From Pleionea litopenaei (lineage in GTDB: Bacteria > Pseudomonadota > Gammaproteobacteria > Enterobacterales > Kangiellaceae): a stretch of DNA of 64,000 nucleotides. The notes beneath the pieces are model-generated. The model searched no databases. It was not told where the DNA came from and worked only from the letters and a program-made list of their open reading frames with translations. Position 1 is the first letter of the stretch, and each line of letters starts with the position of its first letter. Below, one piece after another: positions 365 through 14,673 of the stretch. The translations under genes and the position numbers were made by a program. Location: NCBI RefSeq assembly GCF_031198435.1, contig NZ_CP133548.1:1986501-2050500 (forward strand). The letters are read 5' to 3'.

Positions 365-477
365 ATAACGCCCGGCTCAGCCGAGCACAACGCGGAAGTT
401 GCCTTGTGTTAAATTGGGAGCTCAGCGAAACACATGATTGTGGAACCTAGTTGGTTTCCGTGTACTGCATTGTTAGC
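365..477 (-). repeat. attC site, distal-most cassette
   Basis: R' box TAACGCC lies at 366-372 and R'' GTTAGCA at 472-478. The arms between them pair imperfectly: GCACAACGCGGAA near 385 matches TTCCGTGTACTGC near 457 in reverse complement. This is a long, VCR-like site and the last one before the left chromosomal flank. Confidence 0.75.
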
Positions 478-490
478 AGATGGTCGGAGA

Positions 491-859: not shown

Positions 860-876
860 AATATTTCCTCTTGTAG

Positions 877-920
877 CTAACGCCTATAGCATTGAAAATT
901 AAGCGCGATCAGCGGTTAAG
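877..920 (-). repeat. Short attC-like site
   Basis: The R'-type box CTAACGCC is at 877-884 and a GGTTAAG box at 914-920. At about 44 bp it is short for attC. It resembles the equally short site at 1892-1938 (both contain AGCGGTTA), so it may be a reduced but real attC. Confidence 0.5.
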
Positions 921-963
921 CCAGATAATGATATTAGCAATATAATAAAGGTTGTGTATTTCA
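899..963 (-). CDS. Mini-ORF encoding little more than a signal peptide (21 aa)
   Basis: The ATG at 961-963 opens a 21-codon frame, MKYTTFIILLISLSGLTADRA, that ends inside the short attC-like site at 877-920. The sequence is a basic-hydrophobic-polar signal peptide with no mature domain. It occupies its own small cassette-like interval between two attC-like sites, 877-920 and 969-999. It is probably the 5' stub of a secreted or lipoprotein gene whose body was lost, though a true small peptide cannot be excluded. Confidence 0.35.
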
Positions 964-968
964 TATTT

Positions 969-999
969 CTATTAACTCCGTGCACAGAGGCTTGTTAAA
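969..999 (-). repeat. Minimal attC-like hairpin
   Basis: A TTAAC box (970-974) and a GTTAA box (993-997) are separated by about 18 bp containing the pairing arms CTCCGTGCACAGAG. This is far shorter than typical attC sites. It lies at the 3' end of the 1003-1347 gene, where an attC is expected, so it may be a deletion derivative. Confidence 0.3.
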
Positions 1000-1002
1000 T
1001 TT

Positions 1003-1347
1003 TTACTCAACTATTAGCTCCAGCCCCATAGAACCTAGCCCAAAAAGTTGCTCATGATCTATGGGCCTGATGCTGAACACAGAACTAACAGTAGTATCTG
1101 ATGGCATGGAAACTAAACTATATAGCTCGTTTTTAGATGCCTCTGAATATTGAATAGCAACCTTATCATGTGTGCAGGAAATCTCTACTTTCATGCCATT
1201 GCAAATAAGCTCGATAGTTCCTTGGTCAGTCCCTATCTCTTTAACGGTACCATGTTTAGACTTTTTGATATCTCTAGCCAACGCCGCAATTTCACTAGCA
1301 GAACCAGAGATATTTGTAGCTAGTTTATTAGAACTAACTTTCAACAT
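1003..1347 (-). CDS. Cassette protein of unknown function (114 aa)
   Basis: This soluble protein has no recognised family. It starts MLKVSSNKLATNISGSASE and lacks a signal peptide or membrane segment. The N-terminal third is helical and rich in Ala, Lys and Asp. The rest alternates hydrophobic and polar residues as in a beta-rich domain (TIELICNGMKVEISCTHDKV). The start codon lies only a few bases from the attC R' box at 1357, so the gene fills its cassette, as is typical. Confidence 0.65.
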   Translation of the reverse strand: MLKVSSNKLATNISGSASEIAALARDIKKSKHGTVKEIGTDQGTIELICNGMKVEISCTHDKVAIQYSEASKNELYSLVSMPSDTTVSSVFSIRPIDHEQLFGLGSMGLELIVE

Positions 1348-1356
1348 GATGAAATT

Positions 1357-1448
1357 TAACGCCCCTAAGCAGAGGCAAATTTGTTTTTAGCGCGCAGCGC
1401 GTTAATTTGTCCAGCCAGTTCGCTGGCGAACTGACTTGGTTTGTTATA
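1357..1448 (-). repeat. attC site
   Basis: R' TTAACGCC is at 1356-1363 and R'' GTTATAA at 1443-1449. The internal arms include the palindromic GCGCGCAGCGCG near 1390 and CCAGTTCGCTGG near 1413. Confidence 0.75.
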
Positions 1449-1881
1449 AGTCTTCAATGGTTGCCGAAATGTATGTTAATTTTAAAAGGTACTTCCGTGT
1501 AATTTCACTACCATCTTTTCGATAATTTATAGATTTAAGCGTTATTTCTGGCTCAGACTCATCCCAATTCAATACTTCCCACTTATGAGCTTCAGGAAGC
1601 TGATAGATTGACATTACAGGTGCTTCTTCTCCATCCGCTTCTGTTGTCACAACATAAATTTTTTCTAGCGCTCTACATTCGTAAAGAATTGCACATGAGT
1701 CCATGCTTGAGGTTTTGTAAAGACGTGCTTCGAAATCGTATTTCTCAAATCGCTGTCTTTCGCCAGTCCATACAAGTTTATTCAGGACAAATTCAAGCTC
1801 ACTATTTACTGCACGCTCAAGCGGACCCGAATGTACGGAAAACGAAATCAATACGATAGAAAATAGAATTAGCCTAATCAT
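1444..1881 (-). CDS. Secreted cassette protein of unknown function (145 aa)
   Basis: The N-terminus MIRLILFSIVLISFSVHSG is a clear signal peptide with cleavage likely near residue 18. The mature part (about 125 aa) is charged and beta-rich and has two cysteines (SCAILYEC) spaced for a disulfide, which suggests a periplasmic protein. Near the C-terminus is a repeated Thr/Lys/Leu pattern (EITLKSINYRKDG, EITRKYLLKLTYI). No family was recognised. The stop codon overlaps the R'' box of the attC at 1357-1448. Confidence 0.65.
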   Translation of the reverse strand: MIRLILFSIVLISFSVHSGPLERAVNSELEFVLNKLVWTGERQRFEKYDFEARLYKTSSMDSCAILYECRALEKIYVVTTEADGEEAPVMSIYQLPEAHKWEVLNWDESEPEITLKSINYRKDGSEITRKYLLKLTYISATIEDL

Positions 1882-1891
1882 TTAATTGCCT

Positions 1892-1938
1892 TATAACGCT
1901 TTTAAGCAGTGGTAATTGACCGCAATAAGCGGTTATTT
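1892..1938 (-). repeat. Short attC site
   Basis: R' ATAACGC is at 1893-1899 and R'' GGTTATT at 1931-1937. The total is about 46 bp, among the shortest in this array. The stop codon of the next cassette gene lies within R''. Confidence 0.55.
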
Positions 1939-2286
1939 GTCCTGCTGACTTTGATTGTTATGATTAACCAATTTGAACCATCTTGGTTCGTAACAATACT
2001 CTTTATTAGAACTTCCTATGAAATGAGTGGGGACGTTTTTACATTCAACCTCAGTAATAAATATCACTGATTGCTTACCTTCAAAATATACTTCTGCAAC
2101 ACAATTCGGATGCCGAATATCAGCTCTTAACTTGAGGATTCTTTTGTGTTCTTCACATTCGAGCGATGTACACTCACCCAAAAACTCGATGTCATAATTT
2201 ACAACTTTATGTCCGTCTCTAGGAATACTACAAGAGTAAGCACTGGAAGTAATTAATATTACTAAGGTTAAAACAAATATTCTCAA
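1933..2286 (-). CDS. Secreted Cys-rich cassette protein of unknown function (117 aa)
   Basis: I chose the TTG start at 2284-2286 because AAAGGAA lies eight bases upstream and the frame then opens with a signal peptide (LRIFVLTLVILITSSAYS). Longer in-frame starts would run back into the attC at 2306-2417. The mature part has at least seven cysteines, including ECTSLECEEH, so it is probably a disulfide-bonded periplasmic protein. No family was recognised. It could instead begin with the ATG at 2306-2308, which touches the attC R' box. Confidence 0.6.
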   Translation of the reverse strand: MRIFVLTLVILITSSAYSCSIPRDGHKVVNYDIEFLGECTSLECEEHKRILKLRADIRHPNCVAEVYFEGKQSVIFITEVECKNVPTHFIGSSNKEYCYEPRWFKLVNHNNQSQQDK

Positions 2287-2305
2287 CTTAAATTCCTTTA
2301 AAATC

Positions 2306-2417
2306 ATAACGCCCGCAGTCACGGGACCAGCGCAGTGGAACAAACATGTGATAAACTGAGCGCAGCGAAGCACATGTTTGTGGAGCGTACTTGGTTCCCG
2401 AGCACTACCTTGTTAGC
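2306..2417 (-). repeat. attC site
   Basis: R' ATAACGCC is at 2306-2313 and R'' TGTTAGCC at 2411-2418. The arms CAGCGCAGTGGAAC and GTTCCCGAGCACTAC pair imperfectly, and ACATGTGATAAA/ACATGTTTGTGG repeats lie between them. Confidence 0.8.
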
Positions 2418-2844
2418 CATTTGTTAGTTTTTGCCTTGAATTCTTGAACATATGGTAGATGTTGTAAGTAACAAGAATCATCCACATGACAATATTATCA
2501 AAGCGATTCTCATAGAATGCTCTTACAGCCATTGCAGAGCAAAGACCAATAATAACTGCCTGGAAGGTTAATGAAAAGGCCGCCACGTTAACCTTTGCTA
2601 CTTCACCATGTGCAGATTGGTACCTATCGATCATTCGATTGATTAATAGTGCTATGGCGTAGATTCCGGAAAATATTAAGGCGACATACCCAAGTAAAAC
2701 CCAACCTTCTGCGGTGATATTGAAAATACCCCTAAGAAATATGAAAGCAACATAAGAAAAGATAGCGAGCAAAAGTACCCCGCCTACACCTAAGAATCCA
2801 ATTCCACTTACTTTTACAAATTCACGTCTAGATTGATTGATCAT
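2413..2844 (-). CDS. Integral membrane cassette protein (143 aa)
   Basis: This is a predicted inner-membrane protein with about four hydrophobic segments, at about residues 13-37, 45-66, 85-105 and 113-127. It starts MINQSRREFVKVSG. I chose 2844 as start because the longer open frame to 2973 runs through the attC at 2854-2945. A family was not recognised. The pattern of alternating helices with a short basic tail (MFKNSRQKLTNG) gives no enzymatic clue. The stop lies in the attC at 2306-2417. Confidence 0.65.
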   Translation of the reverse strand: MINQSRREFVKVSGIGFLGVGGVLLLAIFSYVAFIFLRGIFNITAEGWVLLGYVALIFSGIYAIALLINRMIDRYQSAHGEVAKVNVAAFSLTFQAVIIGLCSAMAVRAFYENRFDNIVMWMILVTYNIYHMFKNSRQKLTNG

Positions 2845-2853
2845 GATCGTATA

Positions 2854-2945
2854 GCTAACGCTCCAATAAACGGTGACCGACACAGGAGAGAGTCCTTGCG
2901 CAATGCCGTAGGCATGGAGCAAATTGTTTGATTGACTTGTTAGGT
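2854..2945 (-). repeat. attC site
   Basis: R' GCTAACGC is at 2854-2861 and R'' TTGTTAGG at 2938-2945. The central part carries CAATGCCGTAGGCATGG, which forms a GCC-TA-GGC type apical hairpin. Confidence 0.75.
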
Positions 2946-2948
2946 GAA

Positions 2949-3381
2949 CTACTCTCCATACATTTTTACCCAAAACAACATTGTTTTGTATTTTTCCGTA
3001 AGCTTTTCATTACCAAGCTCGGAAATTAAGTCTGTAATAAAATCTCGAACTTGATCTTTTCCAAAGTTAGCGCAGAAATACCAAGGCAACTCTTTCACGG
3101 AAACTTCCAATAACCCTGGTGTTGCATATAATGCTCCGTCAATATTCAAAGGACACTTTGGCATAACTCTATATAGAATTTTTCCCGCCAATTCCTGCCT
3201 TGCAAAAAAGTTCTCTTGAAGGCTAGGGTCATAAAAAAAACGAGAACAAACCAAAAAACACTTCTGAATTATCAGACTTTCCGCAGAAAAACGCCAACTG
3301 CTTAAACTGTCGAGTGTTGCTATAGCCATACATGTCTGCCGACTGAAGTACACTCTCTTGTATTTTTTGACGATTCCACAT
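2949..3381 (-). pseudogene. Cassette gene with a probable one-base frameshift
   Basis: Two overlapping frames give one sensible protein if one T is removed from the T8 run (A8 on the + strand at 3233-3240). The upstream frame starts at 3381 with MWNRQKIQESVLQSADMYGY behind an AGGTGA ribosome binding site and ends FGLFSFF. The downstream frame continues YDPSLQENFFARQELAGK to the stop at 2949. The corrected product is 143 aa, soluble and unknown. The single-frame alternative, a GTG start at 3395, gives an odd basic Cys-rich N-terminus. The frameshift may be real decay or a homopolymer sequencing error. Confidence 0.55.
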
Positions 3382-3394
3382 ACTTGTTTTTTCA

Positions 3395-3488
3395 CCTACC
3401 GCCATGGTAAGGGGCAGACAAAGCGCAGCTTTGACTGTCCCGTGCTACTGGCTTTAGCCGCCAGAGCAAACTTGACCACCTTGTTATG
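3395..3488 (-). repeat. attC site with degenerate R' box
   Basis: The R'' box TTGTTATG is at 3481-3488. The expected R' TAACGCC is altered to CTACCGCC at 3396-3403. The body, with GGGGCAGAC...GACTGTCCC and GGCTTTAGCCGCC, resembles the other long sites. The damaged R' box may make the site poorly recombinogenic. Confidence 0.6.
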
Positions 3489-3489
3489 T

Positions 3490-3818
3490 TTAATTGTTAA
3501 CTGCATTGCTGATGACTTCCATGTGTTTGTCCGAGCAGTTTGCATCTTTGCACACTGATTCGGCATCGCTTTTGACTGTGCCTAGAAACTGACTGTTAGA
3601 ATTTATTTCTTCTTTTAGTTTTTCGAATTGTCCACTTTCGATTAGGACTAAGTATTCCGAATTTAGCTGCAATTGGTGTTTGTATTGTTGATGACTAGGG
3701 CAGAAAGCATTACTGCAATAGTCGTATCCGGCTCCCCGACAAGACGTTTATTTTCATAATACACACCTGCGTAGAATGCACCAAGAATAATCGAGATAAT
3801 CAAGAGATACTTCATCAT
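3490..3818 (-). pseudogene. Membrane-anchored Cys-rich cassette gene with a probable one-base frameshift
   Basis: The ATG at 3816-3818, preceded by AAGGTACCC, opens a frame with a signal anchor (MMKYLLIISIILGAFYAGVY) that is interrupted shortly afterwards. Adding one base to the G4 run (C4 on the + strand at 3734-3737) joins it to the frame DYCSNAFCPSHQQYKH and on to the stop at 3490. The corrected protein is 109 aa with one N-terminal membrane segment and four cysteines in CX4C and CX4C pairs. I do not recognise a family. A homopolymer sequencing error would explain the break equally well. Confidence 0.5.
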
Positions 3819-3831
3819 GGGTACCTTAAAC

Positions 3832-3898
3832 ATAACGCCTAAATTTGCGATTCATAGCGAGTGCGCGGGTGATGAATTCGCAATATTATTTGGTTAGT
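3832..3898 (-). repeat. attC site
   Basis: R' ATAACGCC is at 3832-3839 and R'' GGTTAGT at 3892-3898. The arms TTGCGATTCAT and ATGAATTCGCAA pair well, giving a compact 67-bp site. Confidence 0.8.
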
Positions 3899-4373
3899 TC
3901 TTTTCCTTAATCCAATCTTGGTAATCAACATTTTCGCAATCACTCCCCTTGTAATCATTATCAGAAATCATGACTGATTTACATTTTTTATTCCACTGCT
4001 GAGTAGCATCTACTCGTCCCAACATAACATCAAGAGTCACTAGCCAATAGTGTTTATCAGGCGTTAAGATTAGCACTTCGTACGCGTATGAGTCTGTTGG
4101 TATTCTTTTTGTACCGAACTTGAAAGGTAAGCCTTTTTCTGATGCTTCACGAGCACAACGATAACCCAACTTGCTTGCAGCAATACTACTTGGATTTCTC
4201 TCTGTTAAATCGAAGAAACCACAGTTGATCGCATCAACTCCAGATAGCTCATTTAGTTTATTCGAAAATCCGTCATATCCCATTGGATTCCAATTATTAT
4301 TTTTTTCTGAAAACAATAGTGAGCTAGAGCAACCAAAAAGAAATAGTATGATTGTGATATTGATAAATTTCAT
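3894..4373 (-). CDS. Cassette-encoded lipoprotein (159 aa)
   Basis: The N-terminus MKFINITIILFLFGCSSS contains a lipobox (LFGC), so the product is predicted to be lipidated at Cys15 and anchored in the envelope. The mature part is about 145 aa and polar. It has five further cysteines (NCGF, YRCAREA, KKCK, SDCENV) and ends in a charged WIKEKN tail. No family was recognised. Its stop overlaps the R'' box of the attC at 3832-3898, and its ATG lies just inside the next attC boundary at 4379. Confidence 0.7.
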   Translation of the reverse strand: MKFINITIILFLFGCSSSLLFSEKNNNWNPMGYDGFSNKLNELSGVDAINCGFFDLTERNPSSIAASKLGYRCAREASEKGLPFKFGTKRIPTDSYAYEVLILTPDKHYWLVTLDVMLGRVDATQQWNKKCKSVMISDNDYKGSDCENVDYQDWIKEKN

Positions 4374-4378
4374 AGTCT

Positions 4379-4439
4379 CTAACGCCTAAATGAGTTGAGC
4401 AGTGTCTTTTACTGCTTCAATCTTCGTTGCCTTGTTATA
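4379..4439 (-). repeat. attC site
   Basis: R' CTAACGCC is at 4379-4386 and R'' CTTGTTATA at 4431-4439. The inner arms GAGCAGTGTC and ACTGCTTC are partly complementary. Confidence 0.75.
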
Positions 4440-4443
4440 CATT

Positions 4444-4806
4444 CTAACTGATGCAACCATGACTCGCACCAATCGAAATTACGTTTCCAGACGGGTCTTT
4501 AATATCAATAAACTCCGCCATCATATTTGGCTCATTCTTAAACTAGATACCATTATCTTTAAGCCGACCAAGTAGATCTATCTTAATATCGTCTTCGTAA
4601 AAAATGGTGATAGAAGACATCATATGTGAGTCACTTCCGAAAACTCTAAAATGGTCTTCAGAACCAACTTCGAGTAAATCAATAATTAGCTTAGCTCCGG
4701 TTTCGCAGATTAGTCGATCGTAGCTCCCAGAAAAAAGACCAATTTTCTTTGAATAGAAATCTATGCTTTCTTCTAAGTTGTTAACTGATAGGTTTAAGTA
4801 AATCAA
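4444..4806 (-). pseudogene. VOC/glyoxalase-like cassette gene with an in-frame stop
   Basis: The frame starts at the TTG at 4804-4806, which has AAGGAG seven bases upstream. It reads IYLNLSVNNLEESIDFYSKK, a typical first beta-alpha unit of vicinal-oxygen-chelate (VOC) proteins. A TAG at 4543-4545 interrupts it, but the same frame continues through FIDIKDPSGNVISI, the classic last VOC motif, to a stop at 4444. Without the TAG the protein would be 120 aa, full length for a single-domain VOC enzyme or a bleomycin-resistance-like binder. It is therefore a recent nonsense pseudogene, or else a sequencing error or readthrough. Confidence 0.75.
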
Positions 4807-4825
4807 ACATTGCTCCTTGATAGTG

Positions 4826-4922
4826 CATAACGCCTTGCCAAGGGGCACACGAAGCAGCGCGTAGTGTGTCCCGAAGAGGCCACGCTTTTTGTGGCCGGAG
4901 TGTACTTAGGCAACTTGTTAAA
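4826..4922 (-). repeat. attC site
   Basis: R' ATAACGCC is at 4826-4833 and R'' TTGTTAAA at 4915-4922. The arms GGGGCACAC and GTGTGTCCC pair, with GGCCACG...GTGGCC inside. Confidence 0.8.
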
Positions 4923-5061
4923 TGTTTTCATACCACCCATCCTTGATTAAATCATTGAGGTTAGAATACCAGCCAGCATCCATTCCAAAGTAATTGTAGT
5001 GGTTTAATGACACCGGACACTTAAATAAGAGATAATTAGATTAACTTATTGAGGTGTACCG

Positions 5062-5352
5062 ATGAGCAAGAATAGGTCAAGACGACAGTTTGATCAAAGC
5101 TTTAAAGAAGATGCGGTAGCTCTGGTTACTGAGCAGGGATATTCGGTGTCAAAAGCAGCTGAATCGTTAGGAATTACGACGAATATGCTATATCGCTGGA
5201 AAGAAAAGCTAGAATCAGATGCAGGCGAAAGCTCTATTTCGGAAGATGAAAGAGCCGAACTATTACGTCTTCGAAAAGAAAATAAAGAATTGCGTATGGA
5301 AAAAGAGATTTTAAAAAAAGCCAGCCAATACTTTGCAAAAGAAATGAAGTGA
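5062..5352 (+). CDS. IS3-family transposase OrfA (96 aa)
   Basis: OrfA is the DNA-binding subunit of an IS3-family transposase. The N-terminal helix-turn-helix (YSVSKAAESLGITTNMLYRW, about residues 28-47) binds the inverted repeats. The C-terminal half is a leucine-zipper-like coiled coil (ELLRLRKENKELRMEKEIL). OrfA overlaps orfB by four bases. An A7 run at 5313-5319 near its 3' end is a likely slippery site for the -1 frameshift that makes the OrfAB fusion, because reading continues in the -1 frame into orfB without a stop. Confidence 0.92.
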   Translation: MSKNRSRRQFDQSFKEDAVALVTEQGYSVSKAAESLGITTNMLYRWKEKLESDAGESSISEDERAELLRLRKENKELRMEKEILKKASQYFAKEMK

Positions 5353-6222
5353 AGTATGAGTTTATTGAGTCAGAAGCCTGTCACTATCCTGTCAGAATGC
5401 TCTGTCGCTTGCTAAACGTCAGTAAATCAGCATTTTATGACTGGAAGCATCGAGAAAAGCCCGTATTTGATGTGGATGAATGGCGTATCAAGAATCGAAT
5501 GAAACGCTTATTTGAGCAGAGTAGGCAGAGTCTTGGGCGTCGAGAAATGACAAAAAAACTTCGCCAGGAAGGTTTTGAAATTGGCGAATGGCGAGTCAGT
5601 CGATTAATGAAAGAACTGTCTCTATTTGTGACGCAAAGATTGGCTTATAAGGTAACAACGAAAAGAAAACACAGCGATTCGGTTGCTGATAACTTGCTTA
5701 ATCAAAACTTCAATCCAGTTGCTCCGAACGAAGTTTGGGCCGGTGATGTGACATATTTGAAGACTGGTGAAGGCTGGATGTACTTGGCGGTTGTCATGGA
5801 TTTATATTCCAGACGAATTGTCGGCTGGCATATTGATAAACGCATGACGACTGACTTGGTGAGCAAGGCGTTAATGAAAGCCTATAACTTGAGGCAGCCG
5901 AGTAAAGGCTGCGTATTTCATAGTGACCGCGGCTCTCAATATACCAGCAATCACTATCGAAAATTGCTGGCCAGTTACAATATGAGGGGCTAGCATGGGT
6001 GACGTTGGCGCATGTTGGGACAATGCTGTGGTTGAGCGATTCTTTGGTAGTTTAAAGCACGACTGGATTTTAAAAGTCCATCAACCAACCAGAGAACACA
6101 TGAAAAAAGATGTCGCAGCTTACATGAAGTATTACAACCTCGAAAGGCTGCATTCTAGTAACGGTGATTTATCGCCAATTAACTATGAAAACTCTCTAAA
6201 GAAAGTGTCCGGTTGGACTTGA
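5349..6222 (+). pseudogene. IS3-family transposase OrfB, frameshifted
   Basis: OrfB carries the rve-type DDE integrase domain. The first Asp is in WAGDVTYLKT and the second in FHSDRGSQYTS. The glutamate lies in ACWDNAVVERFFGSLK, but a single extra T near 5991 (GGGGCTAGCATGG) shifts the frame. Translation from 5349 therefore stops at 5993 after NMRG, and the remaining 75 codons (5995-6222) are in the +1 frame. The two halves together would make a normal OrfB of about 290 aa. As it stands the catalytic triad is split, so the enzyme should be inactive. Confidence 0.85.
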
Positions 6223-6503
6223 CCAGTACAAATCGTCGTGGAAAAATATTAGTCCCCACACATCACCGTATCCTCCGTGCCCTCCTCGACAGTAGGCTAC
6301 ACCGACATCTTGTTCTTCTAAGTCTGCGAATACCCATGCAGGAAATTCTTCTTCGTCACCATACTCCCATTTTAAAGTTTTGGTTTTTAGTAGAATCAGT
6401 TTCTCTTGCAGGTATTCCTTCGGACCTGCATCCATTCGATCCATCTCATCTTTAAGAAGTTTCTCCATCTCACTTTTACTTGGGAAATTTTCCATAGTTA
6501 CAT

Positions 6504-6558
6504 TTAACGCTTAATTGAGACGCGCGTTTTTTGCGTCGATTCAAATGAATAGTTAAGG
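6504..6558 (-). repeat. Short attC site
   Basis: R' TTAACGC is at 6504-6510 and R'' AGTTAAG at 6551-6557. The arms GACGCGCG and TGCGTCG pair around a T-rich loop. Confidence 0.65.
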
Positions 6559-6564
6559 TGCATT

Positions 6565-6864
6565 TCACCTCCCTGCATAATTGATAAAGTGTCGAACGAA
6601 CGAGATTACTAATAGAGCGACTCCGCCTAACAATATAACAATTGGAACACCTAACATGATTCGAACTGACCTGGAGCGATTCTGAAAAAAAGTCGAACTA
6701 AGTGTAACTTCTCCCAGCCATTCAAGAAAGAGCCAAGCAGGAATACCTAGCATAAACAATGCGACCCACCCTAAAATTGAACGTGGAATTTCTGGATAAA
6801 AATGCAACACTAGATAAATAGCGATAAACCCAACAATTCCACAAAAACCAACTATTTTACGCAT
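6565..6864 (-). CDS. Small membrane cassette protein (99 aa)
   Basis: Three hydrophobic helices are predicted at about residues 4-22, 31-52 and 71-92, giving a small inner-membrane protein with a basic loop (QNRSRSVR) between helices 2 and 3. I chose the ATG at 6862-6864 because AAAGGGA lies six bases upstream. A GTG five codons earlier falls almost on the attC boundary. No family was recognised. The gene stops just outside the short attC at 6504-6558. Confidence 0.65.
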   Translation of the reverse strand: MRKIVGFCGIVGFIAIYLVLHFYPEIPRSILGWVALFMLGIPAWLFLEWLGEVTLSSTFFQNRSRSVRIMLGVPIVILLGGVALLVISFVRHFINYAGR

Positions 6865-6880
6865 TCTATCCCTTTGCACT

Positions 6881-6974
6881 TTAACGCCTTGCTAATTGGC
6901 AGCCGAAACGCAGCGTAGGCTGTTCATTGGAGGCCGCTGTTTTTGCGGCCAGAATGTAATTGAGCAACTTGTTA
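6881..6974 (-). repeat. attC site
   Basis: R' TTAACGCC is at 6881-6888 and R'' CTTGTTATG near 6969-6977. GGCCGCTGTTTTTGCGGCC forms a strong inner hairpin near 6932-6950, and the outer arm GCTAATTGGC partly pairs with AATTGAGC. Confidence 0.8.
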
Positions 6975-7295
6975 TGAGTTTTCAAACTCTTGCTCAAGTT
7001 TGATTTCTTTCACATCCATCATATATGGTTTTTCAAGTCCTTCAGACTGAAGTACTTTTTCGTACTGTAATAGGCTTCCTTGCAATCTTTCTGCAAGGCT
7101 TAATGCCTCATAGTACATATCTTCGTCTTTATACTCCTTGGCCTTATCCATAAAATAAGTAGCTGCAGACAACATTGTACTAAGAGTATCACCTTGTAGG
7201 GCTACCACAGGAAACTTACGACCAGGCATATGCACAATGCCACTATTGGAAACATGATCGTATAGCTTTACTTTTTCAGGATATTCTTCAGCCAT
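6972..7295 (-). CDS. Conserved small cassette protein, possibly DUF6959-like (107 aa)
   Basis: The N-terminal half reads VSNSGIVHMPGRKFPVVALQ followed by GDTLSTML. To me this recalls a family of small proteins with a PGR-x-FPG/V-x-x-QGDTL motif (named DUF6959 from memory, not verified). The C-terminal half is helical and charged, with an acidic EQEFENS tail. There is no signal peptide or membrane segment. The function is unknown. Its stop codon lies inside the R'' box of the attC at 6881-6974, and the ATG follows the next attC boundary closely. Confidence 0.7.
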   Translation of the reverse strand: MAEEYPEKVKLYDHVSNSGIVHMPGRKFPVVALQGDTLSTMLSAATYFMDKAKEYKDEDMYYEALSLAERLQGSLLQYEKVLQSEGLEKPYMMDVKEIKLEQEFENS

Positions 7296-7303
7296 ATTTA
7301 CTC

Positions 7304-7378
7304 ATAACGCTTGCCTCAATTGAGACGCTTTTTGTTTTAGCCTTCAATTGCTGGCTTTTTTTATGGCAGGACTAACGG
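7304..7378 (-). repeat. attC site with weak R'' box
   Basis: R' ATAACGC is at 7304-7310. Complementary arms are CCTCAATTGAGAC and CCTTCAATTG. The R'' side (GGACTAACGG at 7369-7378) does not match GTTRRRY well. Confidence 0.55.
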
Positions 7379-7764
7379 TAATCGAATTTAACCATTGCTG
7401 GCATCAATTCTTCGTTAATCGTATCTCTTAATATTTCTATTTCGTTCTTAAGCTCCACAACTCTATTGTTTAGGTCAGGAAAAGTAGACCAAAACTCTTT
7501 CGGTATTCTAAGAATACTTGCAAGTAAGTCGCCAGCATACATATCACCCGAAACGAGCGGGTTGTCTTCTAAGATATTTAGTGCCAAAGGCACAAGGTAG
7601 TCCAAACCAATGTTTTGCCCTATAAGCATTCGCAAATTTTCAGGCGTAAGCTCGGATATTGGAATAGCCTTAAGTGCATGACAGCTTTTAGCTAGGTTCG
7701 AGTCAAACTTGGGTTTTCCCCATTTGCTGTTCTCTAACTCTTCCAATGATTTAGATACGTCCAC
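7372..7764 (-). CDS. CdiI_3-like contact-dependent inhibition immunity protein (130 aa)
   Basis: The sequence has the hallmarks of the CdiI_3 family: an N-terminal KSLEELENSKWG, then CHALKAIPISELTPENLRML followed by IGQNIGLDYLVPLALNILED, and then GDMYAGDLLASIL. Members of this family neutralise the toxic tips of CdiA effectors delivered by neighbouring cells. No cdiA or cdiB gene is nearby, so this is an orphan immunity gene carried as a mobile cassette, presumably protecting the host from a competitor's toxin. Cytosolic; no signal peptide. The family assignment is from motif memory, without a profile search. Confidence 0.8.
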   Translation of the reverse strand: MDVSKSLEELENSKWGKPKFDSNLAKSCHALKAIPISELTPENLRMLIGQNIGLDYLVPLALNILEDNPLVSGDMYAGDLLASILRIPKEFWSTFPDLNNRVVELKNEIEILRDTINEELMPAMVKFDYR

Positions 7765-7775
7765 GTTGCTCCTTA

Positions 7776-7843
7776 GTAGCCATAAAGATTACTTCAAAAT
7801 TTCATGCGTTTTTTGCATAAATATTTTGCTAGTCCTTGTTATA
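7776..7843 (-). repeat. Degenerate attC site
   Basis: The R'' box CTTGTTATAC is at 7835-7844. Partial arms GCGTTTTTTGC lie near 7806. The R' side (GCCATAAAG near 7778) lacks the ACGCC core, so the boundary to the CdiI_3-like cassette is decayed. Confidence 0.4.
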
Positions 7844-7942
7844 CGTTCGGACATGCTACATCCCAACAATGTTGATAGACTTTCATGTTCTGAAAGTTAC
7901 ATCTTTCTTTGAGCTTAGTTTCAAGCTCAATAAAGAACGGGT
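7839..7942 (-). pseudogene. 5'-truncated cassette gene fragment
   Basis: An open frame entering from the attC boundary at about 7942 encodes FFIELETKLKERCNFQNMK and then VYQHCWDVACPNV with a stop at 7839 inside an R''-type box. It has no start codon of its own. It looks like the C-terminal end of a gene whose 5' part was lost when cassettes were rearranged. No family was recognised. Confidence 0.4.
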
Positions 7943-8059
7943 AACGCTGAGCTAAGTGGCTGCCAACGCCTAGATTACTAAAACCATTGCACCTTAACCA
8001 CAAAACTCACTGAAACTAAAAATGCCACGCGTTGGCAGTCCACTTGAGCGACTTGTTAT
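7942..8059 (-). repeat. attC site, long and well paired
   Basis: R' TAACGCT is at 7942-7948 and R'' CTTGTTATG at 8052-8060. The arms AAGTGGCTGCCAACGC (7963-7979) and GCGTTGGCAGTCCACTT (8029-8045) pair almost perfectly apart from one extra base, the typical unpaired extrahelical position of attC. Confidence 0.88.
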
Positions 8060-8068
8060 GTGTATTTA

Positions 8069-8518
8069 TTACGACTCTATCCAAGGTTTAAAGTATCCAG
8101 TTAGAAATTCTGGAAATGAGTTATACACAACTTTAGAGTTTCCGGATTCAAAACTGACAATTGCAAACTCCCCGTTTGAGGATTTCTCAGCTGTATCTAG
8201 GCAGTATGCGCCGTCCTCGTTTAATTGCAGTACCCAAAGGTTTTCACCTAAATTCGGATAGTCCTCTCTCAGAAAACACGTATCTGCATAAATATTACCT
8301 CCTGACAACGACAGGGGGTCTAATTCGCTAATGCCACTGAGAAAACAATCGTAAATGCCAAGTGCTCCAAACTCGAGGAGAAACTCCTTTAATAAAATCG
8401 GTAATTGAATACCCATTTTATCTTCCAAGGTCTCTATTGCATCAAGTGAAACACCACCACTAACCCATACTTCGTGCCCGTTTTTTCTCACTATATCGAT
8501 TTTATTTTGAATATCCAT
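8069..8518 (-). CDS. SMI1/KNR4 (SUKH) family protein, probable immunity protein (149 aa)
   Basis: The segment ETLEDKMGIQLPILLKEFLL plus EFGALGIYD is the characteristic N-terminal SUKH signature (helix, LP.....F...G). It is followed by LREDYPNLGENLWVLQLNED and the late WxPW-like end (FKPWIES). SUKH proteins often act as immunity proteins against nuclease or other toxin domains of polymorphic and contact-dependent systems. No cognate toxin is nearby. I chose the ATG at 8516-8518 (MDIQNKIDIV). Upstream in-frame ATGs run toward the insertion sequence whose left end begins at about 8551. Insertion of that element separated this gene from the upstream cassettes. Confidence 0.8.
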   Translation of the reverse strand: MDIQNKIDIVRKNGHEVWVSGGVSLDAIETLEDKMGIQLPILLKEFLLEFGALGIYDCFLSGISELDPLSLSGGNIYADTCFLREDYPNLGENLWVLQLNEDGAYCLDTAEKSSNGEFAIVSFESGNSKVVYNSFPEFLTGYFKPWIES

Positions 8519-8666
8519 TATTACACCATCGATCGTATGACACATAGACATAATGACTCCCTAGGAGTCTCAATTGAAATTCAGTGCTAGCCCCCTATCG
8601 TGGGTTAGCTTTTCAGCCAGTGCCATACTATATGAGTCATCACACACCATATAAACGGAGGCTAGC

Positions 8667-9821
8667 ATGAACAACGATACCATAACATTTATTGGCATGG
8701 ATACTCATAAAGAGTTCACAGAAATAGCGTATTCAGGTTATGCGAGAGAGACGGCAATCGAGCATTTTGGTCGAATCAAAACGACCAAACCAGCGATTAC
8801 TAAATTTGCTAAACAAATGCAATCTAAGTTCCCAAAAGCAACGCTGCATTTTGTTTACGAAGCAGGCCCTTGCGGCTATTGGGTTTACCGTTTGTTAACC
8901 AGCCTCGGGCATTGTTGCTATGTCGTAGCCCCCTCTCTTATTCCTAAAAAGCCAGGCGATAAAATAAAAACTGATAAACGTGATGCTATTAATCTCACCC
9001 GTCTTTTAAAGAATGCCGATATCATTCCGATTTACGTACCCGAACCAGAAGATGAAGCCATTCGTGATTTGTCTCGTGCAAGAGAGCGCGCCATGAATGA
9101 TTTGTGTGACGCGAAATATCAACTTAAAGCGCTGCTACTTCGCAATCATATTAATTATGAAGGCAAAGCCAATTGGTCATTAAAACATTTACGTTGGCTA
9201 ACAGAATTGGTATTGCCTCATCCCGCACAACAAATTGTACTTCAGGAAATGATTCAAACCGTCACGGAACGAATAGCGAGATTAAAAAGATTGGATAACG
9301 AGCTAGTTCATCAGGTGAAACACTGGCGTTACTACCCTGTTGTTAAAGCAATTCAAGCGATGCGTGGTGTGAGGCTTTTAGTTGCGGCTGGAGTCATTGC
9401 AGAACTAGGCGATCTCACTCGCTTCGACCATCCAAGAAAACTCATGAGTTATGTGGGTCTCATTCCGGGCGAGCATTCCAGTGGAGGGAGACGAAAAGTG
9501 GGTAGCATTACAAAGTGTGGTAATGGTCGAGCGCGACGACTGCTCACCGAGGGTGCTCATTGTTATCGCTATCCGGCTAACATTTCAACTGAATTACAAA
9601 TCAGGCAAGAAAGTTTAAGTAAAGAAATTATCGACATTGCCTGGAAGGCACAACTTCGTTTGTGCAAACGCTACCAACGCCTCATGAAACGAGGTAAACA
9701 TTACAATGTCGTGATTACTGCTGTCGCACGAGAAATGATTGCCTATATTTGGGCAATCAGTCGCGAAGTTGTTATAACAAAAGTTAATCCTAAACAGCGG
9801 CTGTCTCGCGTACCCGCATGA
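8667..9821 (+). CDS. IS110-family DEDD transposase, IS1111 type (384 aa)
   Basis: The RuvC-like N-terminal domain contains the DEDD residues: Asp in FIGMDTHKEF (about residue 11), Glu in VYEAGPCGYW, and two Asp in KTDKRDAINL. The C-terminal Transposase_20 domain includes RGVRLLVAAGVIAELGDL and PGEHSSGGRRKVG, with the serine region used as second active-site part in this family. Length is normal and the frame intact, so this copy is probably active. A GGAGG ribosome binding site precedes the ATG, and a hairpin (GCTAGCC...GGGTTAGC, 8585-8610) lies in the leader. Confidence 0.93.
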   Translation: MNNDTITFIGMDTHKEFTEIAYSGYARETAIEHFGRIKTTKPAITKFAKQMQSKFPKATLHFVYEAGPCGYWVYRLLTSLGHCCYVVAPSLIPKKPGDKIKTDKRDAINLTRLLKNADIIPIYVPEPEDEAIRDLSRARERAMNDLCDAKYQLKALLLRNHINYEGKANWSLKHLRWLTELVLPHPAQQIVLQEMIQTVTERIARLKRLDNELVHQVKHWRYYPVVKAIQAMRGVRLLVAAGVIAELGDLTRFDHPRKLMSYVGLIPGEHSSGGRRKVGSITKCGNGRARRLLTEGAHCYRYPANISTELQIRQESLSKEIIDIAWKAQLRLCKRYQRLMKRGKHYNVVITAVAREMIAYIWAISREVVITKVNPKQRLSRVPA

Positions 9822-10108
9822 ATAAAAAGTTTTGGATTCAATGGCAGATTAAACCACGGCAGGTGGTGCAATCTCCGACGGCGTTAGGATGGCTGATTAT
9901 GAAATTTAATTAGATCCACGAGCATAGACTGAAGACAGGCACCACGACGAAATAAGTAAGGTAGGTAAATCGCTTCGCGATAAAATCCACGGATACCAGC
10001 ATGAGAACCGTCGAAAGTTACTGGCTTTAATCTGTAATTGAATCCATTCAATTTTATACAATAGCGCTTTGTAAAAATAAGTGGGGATTAGTGCGTTTTA
10101 ATTGACAA
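9822..10108 (+). ncRNA. Candidate bridge RNA region of the IS1111-type element
   Basis: The 290-bp non-coding 3' end has no open frame but several potential stems, for example AAATCGCTTCGCGAT near 9967 and CCAGCATGAG...TTACTGG near 9997-10024. IS1111-group elements are reported to encode their guide (bridge) RNA in this end. At 9880-9887 it contains GGCGTTAG, followed by GAT. This matches the attC R' core (GGCGTTA) shared by nearly all sites in this array and could be the target-binding guide. The RNA boundaries and folding are inferred only. Confidence 0.55.
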
Positions 10109-10120
10109 AGGGAGTCATAC

Positions 10121-10175
10121 CAACGCCTAAAGCAGAGGCGCCGCTTGCGGCGTCCTGCTGGCTTTACTTGTTAGT
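10121..10175 (-). repeat. attC site, interrupted at its R' side by the IS1111-type element
   Basis: The remaining site runs from AACGCC at 10122-10127 to R'' TTGTTAG at 10169-10175. It contains strong arms GCCGCTTGCGGC (10139-10150) and AGCAGAGG...CCTGCT. The base next to the core (ACCAACGCC) comes from the inserted element. Confidence 0.75.
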
Positions 10176-10648
10176 TGCTCTATTTCTAGCCATACCATTG
10201 CATCAAAATGTTTACCGTTAATTAACATAAACTTCTCTGTAGAAACACCAACAACCTCGTAATTGTGGTCTCGAAGCACCTTTGCAATTGACTTTATATA
10301 GGAACAATTTAATAACGCCTCTTGAAATGGCTTACGAAGTGGCTTTACTTTTGGGTTATGCATATTGCCAGCAGATGTGTACGCTGCTTTCAGTTCATTT
10401 GGATAATGCTCGCTTAGATAGCCTTGAACTTCAACTTGCAAGCTACCTGAATTTAACTGAATTACTCGCCCTAAATTAATGCCAGACAGCTTGCGGCTTT
10501 CTTCGCCTATAATTTTCCCGAGATCGGAAATCTGGCCACCCCTTAATAAGAGGTTATATTTAGATTCATCCTTGTAATGATCCCTTACTTCCCAAGCTTG
10601 AACACTTAGAGAATAAATCAAAATCAATACTGAGAATATGGCACGCAT
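10127..10648 (-). CDS. Periplasmic cassette protein of unknown function (173 aa)
   Basis: The N-terminus MRAIFSVLILIYSLSVQA is a signal peptide with cleavage after VQA. The mature part has an N-terminal DHYKDESKYNLLLRGG segment and a conserved-looking C-terminal half (ALLNCSYIKSIAKVLRDHNY). It ends with AMVWLEIEQ and then reads on through the attC (LTSKASRTPQAAPLL) to a stop at 10127, so the last 15 residues are attC-derived. No family was recognised. It probably acts in the periplasm. Confidence 0.65.
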   Translation of the reverse strand: MRAIFSVLILIYSLSVQAWEVRDHYKDESKYNLLLRGGQISDLGKIIGEESRKLSGINLGRVIQLNSGSLQVEVQGYLSEHYPNELKAAYTSAGNMHNPKVKPLRKPFQEALLNCSYIKSIAKVLRDHNYEVVGVSTEKFMLINGKHFDAMVWLEIEQLTSKASRTPQAAPLL

Positions 10649-10668
10649 TCTAAATCCTTGAGGGCAAC

Positions 10669-10728
10669 TAACGCTTATTTAAATTGTGAGGCTTCTTTTT
10701 AGCCGAATCCATTTCTAATCCTTGTTAG
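10669..10728 (-). repeat. attC site
   Basis: R' CTAACGC is at 10669-10675 and R'' CTTGTTAGG at 10721-10729. The GAGGCTTC...TAGCCGAAT arms pair weakly. Confidence 0.7.
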
Positions 10729-11036
10729 GCACGTTTTCGACTGATTGAAAATGTACCAGACTCGTATACAAAACTGAGAGCGCTATCTGCACTTTGAAAT
10801 TCTAATTTTCCCGAATTATAGTCTATCTCTGTTACCGGTACAGAAACTCCATCAAGCGGACCAATTCCCTCTATCGTTCCATCATCTGGATATATCACTG
10901 AATAGTCTCGCGCAACTCGCTCGAACGAATCTAAGGAGAAAACTCCTCTTCCCGAATGGCTAACGGTTATCAGATACTCCATATTTGGATCGCAACCTGC
11001 TGCGACTACCCCACCGATTGAAATATGCTTAACCAT
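10725..11036 (-). CDS. Cassette protein of unknown function (103 aa)
   Basis: This small soluble, beta-rich protein starts MVKHISIGGVVAAGCDPNME. Segments include YLITVSHSGRGVFSLDSFER and a C-terminal SFVYESGTFSISRKRA. It has no signal peptide and no membrane helix. The alternating pattern would suit a compact beta-barrel or sandwich, but I cannot assign a family. Its stop lies in the attC at 10669-10728 and its start ATG is within ten bases of the next attC boundary. Confidence 0.6.
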   Translation of the reverse strand: MVKHISIGGVVAAGCDPNMEYLITVSHSGRGVFSLDSFERVARDYSVIYPDDGTIEGIGPLDGVSVPVTEIDYNSGKLEFQSADSALSFVYESGTFSISRKRA

Positions 11037-11045
11037 TTACATGCC

Positions 11046-11104
11046 TAACGCCCGCAACAACGGTGAGCAACTTGTTGCGAGTCCTGTTGCTTGCGCTTGT
11101 TATG
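11046..11104 (-). repeat. attC site
   Basis: R' CTAACGCC is at 11045-11052 and R'' CTTGTTATG at 11096-11104. The arms GCAACAACGG and TCCTGTTGC pair, with CAACTTGTTG as an inner palindrome. In cassette orientation the R' junction reads GGCGTTAGGCAT, close to the GGCGTTAGGAT in the candidate bridge RNA. Confidence 0.78.
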
Positions 11105-11792
11105 CGCCATATGCGGCCCGCCTTAACTGATTTTGTAATGTCGCTTGTTCACCATCAGAGCTATCAAATGTTTCATAAGGTGTATTAATTTCTACAACAT
11201 CACTGTTATTTAGCTCAGAAATGTTGGCAAAATCTCTTAGCTTGGCCAAATCTGTTATTAATGATTTAGCCAGCCACATTGGAGAGGACACTGTTTCTCG
11301 GTAACCATTCTTTAGAACAAACCTGCCGGGGTTGTTAGAGATATCCACCACCTCTTGTTCTAAAGGAAACGGTAAATTATTAGAGGCTTTAGGCAGTTGT
11401 GAATGATCTTTCCCTGCCGAATCATAGAGCAAAGTATCTTCTGCATTTTGCCAATAGTAATACTCTCGATTGTGAATAAAGGCTTGAGTTACTGGCAACT
11501 CTTGAATGAAAAGCTCCACTAACTCTTTTAGATAAGATATATGAACGCCTTGTGAATTTATAATCAAAAAGTCGTGCTCGTGGTTTGCGACTGAGCCTCC
11601 ATGAATATCTTTGAATAAATGCCCTGAAAGAGAAAGATAGCCTCCGCTCTCAATTTTTTGCACCTGATCAGCAGTTGAATAATCCTCTACCGAAAGTCCG
11701 ATCTTTGGGCACAGCTTATCGAGGGTGTATAGAACATCCTTGGCGTCTACTGTTTGGTATTCAAAAGTTAGCTCTATTTCGTACATAGCCAC
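11100..11792 (-). CDS. Cassette protein of unknown function (230 aa)
   Basis: This is the largest cassette product. It is acidic and soluble, starting MAMYEIELTFEYQTVDAKDV. An apparent ferredoxin-like N-terminal half runs to about residue 110. After that come HNREYYYWQNAEDTLLYD and a C-terminal region with SSPMWLAKSLITDLAKLRDF. There is no signal peptide, membrane helix or recognised catalytic motif. Its position as second cassette from attI suggests it is expressed if the cassette promoter is active. No family assignment. Confidence 0.65.
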   Translation of the reverse strand: MAMYEIELTFEYQTVDAKDVLYTLDKLCPKIGLSVEDYSTADQVQKIESGGYLSLSGHLFKDIHGGSVANHEHDFLIINSQGVHISYLKELVELFIQELPVTQAFIHNREYYYWQNAEDTLLYDSAGKDHSQLPKASNNLPFPLEQEVVDISNNPGRFVLKNGYRETVSSPMWLAKSLITDLAKLRDFANISELNNSDVVEINTPYETFDSSDGEQATLQNQLRRAAYGA

Positions 11793-11805
11793 TCAATCAA
11801 AGCGC

Positions 11806-11909
11806 ATAACGCTTTGCTAAGGGGCAGTTTTGTAGTTGATTTGCTTTTATGCTACACAGCATAAAAGTGAAGCGACGTAAAAACTGTCCCTGCTTGAGCA
11901 ACTTGTTAT
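11806..11909 (-). repeat. attC site
   Basis: R' ATAACGC is at 11807-11813 and R'' CTTGTTATG at 11902-11910. The arms GGGGCAGTTTT and AAAACTGTCCC pair, and TTTTATGCTACACAGCATAAAA forms a strong apical hairpin near 11847-11868. Confidence 0.85.
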
Positions 11910-12196
11910 GCATTGGCCATGACCAAAGCAACTAACTGTAGTGCAAATGCAAGAATAAAAAAGACAAACCCAGTAATTAGAAGCCCCTTCTTCTGAGCTG
12001 CTTCAACATGAGCTGTAGAATTACCAAGATGATGTATGTTTCCTTGGTGATTGGGCATTAACTGTTGAATATTTACTTCATGGCAGCCCGCCACCAAAGA
12101 TAAGGCGGAAAGTATTCCCGTGACTCTGTAGGCAAGAATACCTGAACCAATAATGCCCATTATTGCTGCGATAATTTTTATACTTTCTACAGTCAT
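11906..12196 (-). CDS. Membrane cassette protein next to attI (96 aa)
   Basis: The ATG at 12194-12196, with AAGGAAA upstream, opens a protein with an N-terminal hydrophobic segment (about residues 5-36, IIAAIMGIIGSGILAYRV) and a C-terminal one (about 70-92, GLLITGFVFFILAFALQL). Between them lies a His-rich polar loop (NHQGNIHHLGNSTAHVEAA). It is the first cassette after attI, so it should be the best expressed of the array. Its function is not recognised. Confidence 0.65.
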   Translation of the reverse strand: MTVESIKIIAAIMGIIGSGILAYRVTGILSALSLVAGCHEVNIQQLMPNHQGNIHHLGNSTAHVEAAQKKGLLITGFVFFILAFALQLVALVMANA

Positions 12197-12222
12197 AACT
12201 TTCCTTCGAATCTGATTGATGC

Positions 12223-12300
12223 ATAACAGTTGATTGTATTCAGTAAAACTCATTTTAATTCAAACGCTTGTTTAGATTTTACTGAATAATTTATTTAAAT
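12223..12300 (-). other. Probable attI region
   Basis: The junction GCATAACAGTTG at 12221-12232 has the TAAC core of the other cassette boundaries, but the sequence to its right lacks attC arms. This is therefore where the first cassette meets the integron platform, as expected for attI upstream of intI. The precise right limit cannot be read from sequence. Confidence 0.6.
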
Positions 12301-12464: not shown

Positions 12465-13393
12465 TATTTTAAGCATCAAGGAGGATGTAAAATGACGCAA
12501 AAGCCAAAATTCATGCGACTAGTCAGGGACAGGATCAGAACGATGCAGTACTCTTACTTCACCGAAAAGAGCTATGTTTATTGGATTAAGAGCTATATTC
12601 ATTTTCATCAGCTCAAACACCCGCAGGACATGTCTTCAACTCACGTCAACGATTTCCTGACCTACCTCGCAGTCACTCGTAAAGTTTCGCCAGCAACACA
12701 GAATCAAGCTTTATGTGCGCTAGTGTTCCTTTATAAAGAGGTTGTAAAACAACCGCTTGGAGAGAATAAAATCAATGCTGTACGGTCAAAATCTCATCGT
12801 AATTTACCAGTGGTCCTCTCTCCAGCAGAAGTAAAACGACTTCTCAATTCAATGCACGGTTTACCTCAATTAATGGCAAAACTGCTCTATGGTACTGGAT
12901 TGAGAAAAACAGAAATTCATCGAATTCGAGTGAAGGACATCGACTTTGATCGCAATCTAATCATTGTTAAACGCGGTAAAGGGAAAAAAGACAGACCTTT
13001 ACCATTGCCCGATGCATGTCGCAAAGAACTGCAAAATCAAATTGAATTTGTTAAGCAGCTTCATCTAAAAGACCGAAGAGAAAACGTTAATGGTGTAGAG
13101 ATGCCTTATGCACTAGAGCGAAAGGAACCTAATGCAGGAAAAGCGCTTGCGTGGCAATGGGTATTCCCGAGTCTTCGATTAAGTACTGATCCTCGAACAC
13201 TCATTGTACGCAGACACCATGTTCACCCCTCTGTTTTCGCTAAACATGTTAAAAATGCCGTTAAAAAAGCCGAAATTAATAAGAAAGTAACAGCCCACGT
13301 TTTTCGTCATTCTTTTGCAACACACTTATTAGAATCGGGAGCTGATATTAGAACGGTACAAGAACTATTAGGTCATACTGACGTTAGAACAAC

Positions 13394-14598
13394 TGTACTA
13401 GCTCAGACTTAATCTGACAGTTACCCGTTTTTCAATTGGTGTCTGTCAGTTTAGATTTGAGCTAGATTTTTGTCAGCCCAAATTCTCTTACCATCAATTA
13501 ATGTTTCATTGGGCGTTCGTCCACAACACATTTTTCCTTGATGGGTGCGTTCATTATTGTAGTAAACTATCCATTCGTCCAGATCCTTTTGAAGCTCATC
13601 CAGTGAACTGTATAATTTCTTCCGAAATGTAACCTGGTAGAACTCGTTCAATATCGTTTTATGGAATCGTTCGCAGATACCATTGGTTTGCGGTGACATT
13701 GCTTTAGTCTTTGTATGCTCGATGTCATTGATTGCTAAATACAGCTGATAGTCGTGATGTTCAACTTTTCCACAATACTCAGTGCCGCGATCCGTTAATA
13801 CTCGCAACATGGGTAACTCATGTTGCTGGAAGTAAGGTAGCACTTTGTCATTAAGTATGTCGGCTGCGGTAATAGGTGTTTTTGTGGTGTAGAGTTTGGC
13901 AAAGGCAACTTTGCTGTAAGTGTCGATGAAGGTTTGTTGGTAAATTCGTCCAACGCCCTTTAGGTTACCGACATAAAAGGTATCTTGTGAGCCTAAGTAG
14001 CCAGGGTGAGCTGTTTCAATCTCACCACAGGCTTCATCATCATTTTTCTTCTTCTCAAGTGCAGCTATTTGGCTATCGGTCAGTATGATGCCCTCTTTAG
14101 CAACCTTATCTTCCAGTGCCTTCAAGCGCTTCTTAAAGTTTTCTAGGTCATGCCTGAGCCATATCGACCGGACACCGCTCCCTGATACAAAGACTCCTTT
14201 CTTTCGCAACTCGTTACTGGTTCGGTGTTGGCCGTGTGCCGGAAACTCAATGGCATAATTGATAACCGCTGTTTCTGTGGCTTCATCAACGCGATTTTTA
14301 ACATTTGGGTTGCGACGGCTCTTGCTGATAAGGGCATCGATACCGCCTTCTTCGACCAGTTCTTGATAGCGATAAAATGTATCTCGTGATACGCCCATTA
14401 CCTTACAGGCTTTCGATACGTTCCCGAGTTCTTCTGCTAAGTTAAGTAAACCAGCTTTGTGTTTTATGATTGGGTTGTTAGTATGTAGCATGAGAGTTAC
14501 CTCTATAACGTTCTGATTTAAAGATTCGACACCTTTAATCAAAACGGGTAACTCTCACTTTTTCAAGTTGATGTGTCAGATTAAGTCGAGACTAATTC
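13394..14598 (-). mobile_element. IS481-family insertion sequence in intI, about 1.2 kb
   Basis: The element lies between two copies of AGAACAAC (13386-13393 and 14599-14606), an 8-bp target duplication. If the A at 14599 belongs to the element, the duplication is 7 bp. The ends are inverted repeats of about 27 bp (13394-13420 against 14573-14599) sharing ACTTAATCTGACA. The identical duplication and intact transposase point to a recent insertion. It carries one gene, on the - strand. Confidence 0.93.
13451..14491 (-). CDS. IS481-family transposase (346 aa)
   Basis: The N-terminal helix-turn-helix region (LAEELGNVSKACKVMGVSRD, followed by TFYRYQEL) binds the terminal repeats. The rve catalytic domain has Asp in TFIDTYSKVAF, Asp in VLTDRGTEYCG and Glu in NGICERFHKT, the DDE triad. 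The C-terminus YYNNERTHQGKMCCGRTP is typical of IS481 members. I prefer the ATG at 14489-14491 (MLHTNNPIIKHK), which lies inside the element, over the longer frame starting at 14542. The gene is intact. Confidence 0.93.
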   Translation of the reverse strand: MLHTNNPIIKHKAGLLNLAEELGNVSKACKVMGVSRDTFYRYQELVEEGGIDALISKSRRNPNVKNRVDEATETAVINYAIEFPAHGQHRTSNELRKKGVFVSGSGVRSIWLRHDLENFKKRLKALEDKVAKEGIILTDSQIAALEKKKNDDEACGEIETAHPGYLGSQDTFYVGNLKGVGRIYQQTFIDTYSKVAFAKLYTTKTPITAADILNDKVLPYFQQHELPMLRVLTDRGTEYCGKVEHHDYQLYLAINDIEHTKTKAMSPQTNGICERFHKTILNEFYQVTFRKKLYSSLDELQKDLDEWIVYYNNERTHQGKMCCGRTPNETLIDGKRIWADKNLAQI

Positions 14599-14673
14599 AG
14601 AACAACACAAATTTATACTCATGTTTTAAATCGAAATCCATCGGGGACATTGAGCCCTCTAGATAAGCTTTGA

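Follow-up and report, generated by a model that had tools for sequence, protein, structure and literature searches.

Toxin-less immunity-family genes as single-gene cassettes of a chromosomal integron in Pleionea litopenaei

Orphan-immunity arrays (the rAID arrays and the tails of T6SS and CDI loci) and integrons serving as phage-defence stores are known already, and the immunity-family attC cassettes reported here are a variation on these. Proteins of the CdiI, SUKH and Imm kinds act by binding and blocking the tips of CDI, RHS and T6SS toxins, and an orphan immunity gene can give protection against non-kin. Most integron cassettes are without known function. For the recombinase-linked arrays of Bacteroidales it has been demonstrated experimentally that orphan SUKH immunity genes protect against T6SS effectors (PMC12247911). 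Like the locus described below, these rAID arrays have a tyrosine recombinase adjoining short co-oriented genes, with conserved intergenic motifs and orphan immunity genes including SUKH (PMC12247911). The orphan immunity arrays of the T6SS of V. cholerae (PMC5361080) and of the cdi loci of P. aeruginosa (PMC9086364) are toxin-less too and presumed to protect against non-kin. They form in place through displacement at the secretion locus and involve no integrase; the T6SS immunity arrays have been compared with integrons as an analogy only (PMC5361080). Finally, sedentary chromosomal integrons have been described as antiphage stores (PMC12409362), with the same platform, the same stock-and-shuffle logic and small defence cassettes. 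Our literature search found no report of CDI/RHS immunity families as attC cassettes; most subscription journals lay outside this search, and a prior mention is possible.

We analyzed 64,000 nucleotides of the Pleionea litopenaei genome (NZ_CP133548.1, positions 1,986,501 to 2,050,500), in the following called the window. The window contains a chromosomal integron with about 18 attC-bounded cassettes adjoining an integron integrase gene (Table 1). The two cassettes treated below each have a single open reading frame between attC sites, in the common orientation of the array, and the array adjoins a divergent intI. We located the attC sites by pattern, folding and a scoring script with the R''/L''/L'/R' layout. 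With this script all 13 sites of the window that score 13.3 or more fall within the array. As background, scanning both strands of 80 kb of flanking chromosome gave a single match of at least 13, and scanning 140 kb next to other integrases, on the side away from their arrays, gave a single match of at least 13.3. No attC cluster is present in the 80 kb upstream of the array (L002-L005). A 76-nt direct repeat, 78% identical, lies on either side of the whole integron (window 179-254 and 14886-14961) and is perhaps the scar of an integron duplication or transposition.

Table 1. Features of the integron region, with positions counted in the window
Feature	Position	Strand	Remarks
Integron cassette array	363..12253	-	genes lead away from intI; attC scan and folding, ORFs
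attC of the CdiI_3 cassette	7302..7366	-	degenerate (R'' CCATAAA, not ..TAAC); score 11.9, within the background range of the script, called on position and pairing
CdiI_3 immunity-family gene	7372..7764	-	PF18616; 130 aa, GTG start, AAGGAG close upstream
Leader of the CdiI_3 cassette	7766..7940	-	without gene; no sigma-70 site above chance
attC of the SUKH cassette	7939..8061	-	Vibrio-repeat (VCR) type, 123 nt; score 13.4
SUKH gene (SMI1/KNR4, SUKH_5-like)	8069..8551	-	160 aa from ATG 8551, or 149 aa from ATG 8518
IS110/IS1111-type insertion sequence	8555..10117 (approximate)	+	transposase 8667-9821; PF02371, PF01548; ends from sequence
attC of the preceding cassette (gene 10127-10648)	10118..10176	-	5' boundary of the SUKH cassette; score 17.4
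intI, 5' part	12492..13412	+	TIGR02249 E = 2e-117, model 2-295 of 315; without the YTHV segment (catalytic tyrosine)
rve-type insertion sequence splitting intI	13410..14607		transposase 13451-14542 (-); Pfam rve/HTH; junctions mapped
intI, 3' remainder QIYTHVLNRNPSGTLSPLDKL	14608..14673	+	junctions mapped

Three IS elements are present in the integron region. The IS110-type element separates the SUKH gene from the preceding attC and is inserted exactly at the core-site end of this attC; attC targeting is a known habit of some IS1111 members. An IS3-type element (window 4925-6495) splits the open reading frame of another cassette, for which no known family was matched; the orfB of the element is itself broken by a stop (5991-5993). 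As to the neighbouring cassettes, a glyoxalase/VOC-like gene (window 4440-4812) has an in-frame stop near 4543, and a DUF6959 cassette (PF22281, E = 7e-18; window 6972-7295) lies directly behind the CdiI_3 cassette.

The CdiI_3 gene is present in a single copy in the 4.42-Mb genome. Its product matches PF18616 over model positions 1-94 of 95, with 106.5 bits (cut-off 28) and an E-value of 7.3e-31. The only confident PDB match, by sequence as well as by fold, is the immunity chain of 5J5V (E. coli CdiA-CT/CdiI/CysK). Searching with phmmer gave an E-value of 3e-7 against 5j5v_C, and the fold model (pLDDT 76, built from two sequences) has its best Foldseek matches in 5j5v_C/F with a probability of 1.00, a TM score of 0.61 and an E-value of 0.006. 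Thus, the CdiI of uropathogenic E. coli 536 is of the same family and fold as the cassette protein. The CdiA-CT toxin of E. coli 536 is a tRNase activated by CysK (PMC9086364). The two immunity proteins are about 27% identical, and the toxin that pairs with the cassette protein may be of another kind. The leader of the cassette possibly holds a decayed attC at about 7790-7845. A paired CDI/RHS toxin, as is usual for the family, is found neither in the same nor in the neighbouring cassettes.

The SUKH gene is recognized by PF14567 (3e-13), PF09346 (4e-11) and PF14568 (4e-10), in all three cases above the curated cut-off, and its product matches YobK (PDB 2prv) with an E-value of 1e-4. Over about 120 nt the attC of this cassette shares 72-76% identity with sequences of Vibrio plasmids, and it shares as much with the repeats of superintegrons in another family of the order (f21). 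This suggests that the SUKH cassette may have come from a Vibrio-type superintegron. After comparison with the Vibrio repeats, a core site at 7963 was dropped for one at 7941.

A previous sequence-only reading had placed a CdiI_3-like and an SMI1/KNR4-like gene next to each other in the array and without toxin genes, and had proposed profile searches for both families. The profiles are positive above their curated cut-offs and both genes lie in attC-bounded cassettes. The two genes are indeed neighbours since the IS110-type element lies beyond the SUKH gene. Neither the CdiI_3 nor the SUKH cassette contains a second gene or a toxin domain. These are two single-gene cassettes, each encoding an immunity-family protein without its toxin, and we consider it moderately probable that they are kept because the proteins block the toxin tips of competitors. 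The further idea, that the array may stock such protection, is partly supported: toxin-less immunity-family cassettes do recur in integrons, but at most two of the about 18 cassettes here belong to known immunity families. Two more products had been thought to be of like character, that of the IS3-split cassette (6225-6495 / 4925-5008) and that of 491-859. This likeness was not borne out, as neither open reading frame gave an immunity family in Pfam, PADLOC or the plasmids; the predicted fold of the 491-859 product is too poor for use (pLDDT 59).

CdiI_3 is seldom met with in the class: a search of about 765 genomes gave five genes in four genomes. Three of these genes are cassettes and one is in the expected toxin/immunity place. 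Outside the window, two of the four gammaproteobacterial genes are found in attC arrays. In a congener (G304, locus L011) the gene has attC sites on both sides, one at 8867-8924 and a non-canonical one at 8374-8457. In a genome of another family (L013) the gene has its own attC with a score of 16.3 and three more attC sites behind it; no integrase was found near this array. At L012 and L010 the gene stands solo. The gene in the toxin/immunity place (L014, genome G632), a close relative, follows directly behind an RHS protein with a gap of 66 nt, and the RHS tip adjoining it gave no match to a Pfam model. In this region (L014:132-12203) two RHS proteins which differ in their C-terminal tips enclose the CdiI_3 gene together with a large repeat protein. 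The congener G304 has, close to its attC cluster, a pair of reverse-transcriptase-like genes (L011:1731-4951, minus strand), possibly a defence reverse transcriptase. In viral contigs no CdiI_3 relatives were detected. On plasmids the family was found only in Streptomyces, Kitasatospora and Bacteroidota, with an attC cluster in none of the four regions opened, and a scan of genome contigs gave one Bacteroidetes orphan only.

SUKH genes are more numerous. PF14567 finds 77 of them in 198 genomes of the order. About 36 of these are strong matches and apparently single-copy, and some 40 are divergent like the gene of the window. The strong single-copy genes resemble core genes that serve other purposes, and none of the five checked lies in an attC array. 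Divergent SUKH genes are found in attC arrays of five other genomes. Three (L129, L130 and L131) lie between attC sites which score 16-17 on both sides, a fourth is the last cassette of its array (L156) and the fifth is the second cassette of the intI array of the congener G274 (L024/L029). No convincing attC was present at the SUKH loci L020-L023, and L160 was not counted as a cassette because its nearest attC is 0.9 kb off. The cassettes L129 and L131, which are from different families (f6/f2), can be aligned over the stretch which begins at the core site and ends with their own attC; their flanks are unrelated. Homology ending exactly at the cassette boundaries is the mark of movement as a cassette; such movement as a unit is seen for this related SUKH cassette (L129/L130/L131), not for the two cassettes of the window. 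The coding differences between L129 and L131 are distributed 26/15/58 over first, second and third codon positions, and three methods give a dN/dS of 0.09-0.14. Thus, the protein of the shared cassette is kept by purifying selection. L130 and L131 differ by three bases, one of which is a nonsense change.

For a wider view we collected 381 non-redundant cassette ORFs from about 45 integrons of the order and scanned 314 representatives with Pfam. Among the matches listed, SUKH has at least two members in one batch and at least one in another. Imm8 was found in the intI array of the congener G304 (L026:2809-3150) and Imm58 in a distant integron (L089:6153-6473). The question how often such families occur in other integrons, raised by the sequence-only reading, can thus be answered with two further CdiI_3 cassettes, SUKH cassettes in five genomes and the Imm8 and Imm58 cases. 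Including the CdiI_3 and SUKH cases, immunity families make up at least roughly 2-3% of the cassettes. They are a few per cent of the cassettes and not the bulk; other families found include GNAT, glyoxalase, TIR/ThsB, AbiU2, ParDE/RelE and the like, which are usual contents of integrons. The genus of the window is conspicuous, with CdiI_3 and SUKH in the window, SUKH in G274, and Imm8 and CdiI_3 in G304. Arrays within 20 kb of intI average 4.9 kb, and intI is present in 157 of 395 genomes. Arrays are then probably less than 0.5% of the genome, longer arrays and arrays without intI being left out of this count. If the arrays are given a generous 0.5%, the post hoc probability of finding two of the four other CdiI_3 genes in arrays is 1.5e-4, and that of finding three of 38 SUKH lineages there is 9e-4. 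These chance tests are set against the genome fraction and not against size-matched accessory genes; cassettes favour small genes, and any family of small accessory genes should be somewhat enriched in them.

The integrase gene of the window is broken. The break falls between HTDVRTT and QIYTHVLNR (window 13410-14673), and the catalytic tyrosine of tyrosine recombinases lies in the QIYTHV segment. The local intI being split by the insertion sequence before the YTHV segment, this is not a complete, self-sufficient integron, and the array lacks an enzyme of its own to reshuffle it. The same genome has a second, full-length intI (G000:C1:1007984-1008922; L028, L052) with at least one adjoining attC. 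The 3' flank of this second intI resembles that of the intI in the window. To judge from the sequences, there are two related integron platforms on one chromosome. Both the CdiI_3 and the SUKH gene lie mid-array with the IS110-type element between them and the array front, and a scan for sigma-70 promoters upstream of the two genes gave no site above chance. Together with the degenerate attC of the CdiI_3 cassette, the broken local intI means that the array of the window may be frozen.

These observations bear on the alternative that survives best, namely that the two cassettes are passive or decaying cargo. Abundant small immunity genes would be caught at random and mostly lost, and both cassettes would be idle. 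The mid-array position without a promoter above chance, the broken intI, the three IS elements, the degenerate attC and the nonsense mutation in L130 all speak for such decay. However, the open reading frames are intact here, the SUKH cassette common to two families is under purifying selection, and CdiI_3, uncommon as it is in the class, recurs in the attC arrays of three genomes. We regard idle cargo as unlikely.

Still less likely, in our estimate, is a role in phage defence or in a toxin-antitoxin pair, in which the SUKH and CdiI_3 folds would serve as antitoxin or as part of a phage-defence system, as do many Vibrio cassettes. On expression, about 10% of the cassettes in V. cholerae integrons confer protection from phage (PMC12409362), and the surveyed arrays do carry the TIR/ThsB, AbiU2 and ParDE/RelE cassettes listed above. 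On the other hand, PADLOC gave no match on ten cassettes of the window, neither cassette has a partner gene, and for CdiI_3 both the solved member of the family and the genomic pairing point to contact-delivered toxins.

Several RHS loci are present in the genome of the window. At one of them (L146, G000:C1:3522600-3533000) RHS core fragments and alternative C-terminal tips are accompanied by a protein of unknown function, with a SUKH gene in between. Contact-dependent toxins thus appear to be part of the life of this organism, and the position of CdiI_3 behind the RHS protein of L014 and of SUKH within the tip array of L146 indicates that both families act in toxin/immunity loci. That the cassette proteins neutralize the RHS tips of their own genome, the integron being merely a new address, could be read from these loci but is the least likely of the alternatives; the Vibrio-type attC of the SUKH cassette points to import, and the C-terminal 180 aa of the L014 RHS protein have no match in the genome of the window, in a search run without a positive control. 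The missing match is consistent with a protection which would be directed against a foreign toxin.

We return to the preferred reading, that the cassettes encode immunity proteins kept against competitors, and suggest the following steps. Immunity genes would be shed from toxin/immunity loci such as RHS, CDI and T6SS tips and then captured as cassettes. These could be retained as the predicted proteins bind and block the toxin tips delivered by competitors, CdiI_3 presumably acting on nuclease-type CDI/RHS tips and SUKH on nuclease tips in general. Expression might come about by read-through or by recombination to the array front, as in other integrons. Since the local integrase is broken, such recombination would require the second, intact integrase, encoded elsewhere in the genome, to work in trans. 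SUKH and CdiI_3 are also found as solo genes outside integrons. The data suggest that the protection stored in integrons may be directed not only against drugs and phages but also against competitors. More doubtful, though possible, is the general form of this idea, that chromosomal integrons are a horizontally shared bank of immunity genes against contact-delivered toxins in which the integrase reshuffles the protection as competitors change. If a share of the cassettes indeed encodes immunity proteins against injected toxins, integrons would store protection against phages and rivals alike, and small cassette genes would become testable by simple co-expression with toxin tips.

Compared with the antiphage integrons, the predicted threat is here the injected toxin of a rival and not a phage. 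From the orphan arrays of the T6SS and cdi loci the present genes differ in being movable cassettes away from any secretion locus. In contrast to the rAID arrays, we find an integron integrase (above the TIGR02249 cut-off), attC spacers and immunity genes in the minority, in another phylum; the window array has neither a rAID-type tyrosine recombinase nor the conserved intergenic motif. In our proposal the integron would play here the role of the rAID. If this is true, the likeness to the recombinase-linked arrays of gut Bacteroidales would amount to convergence on one design.
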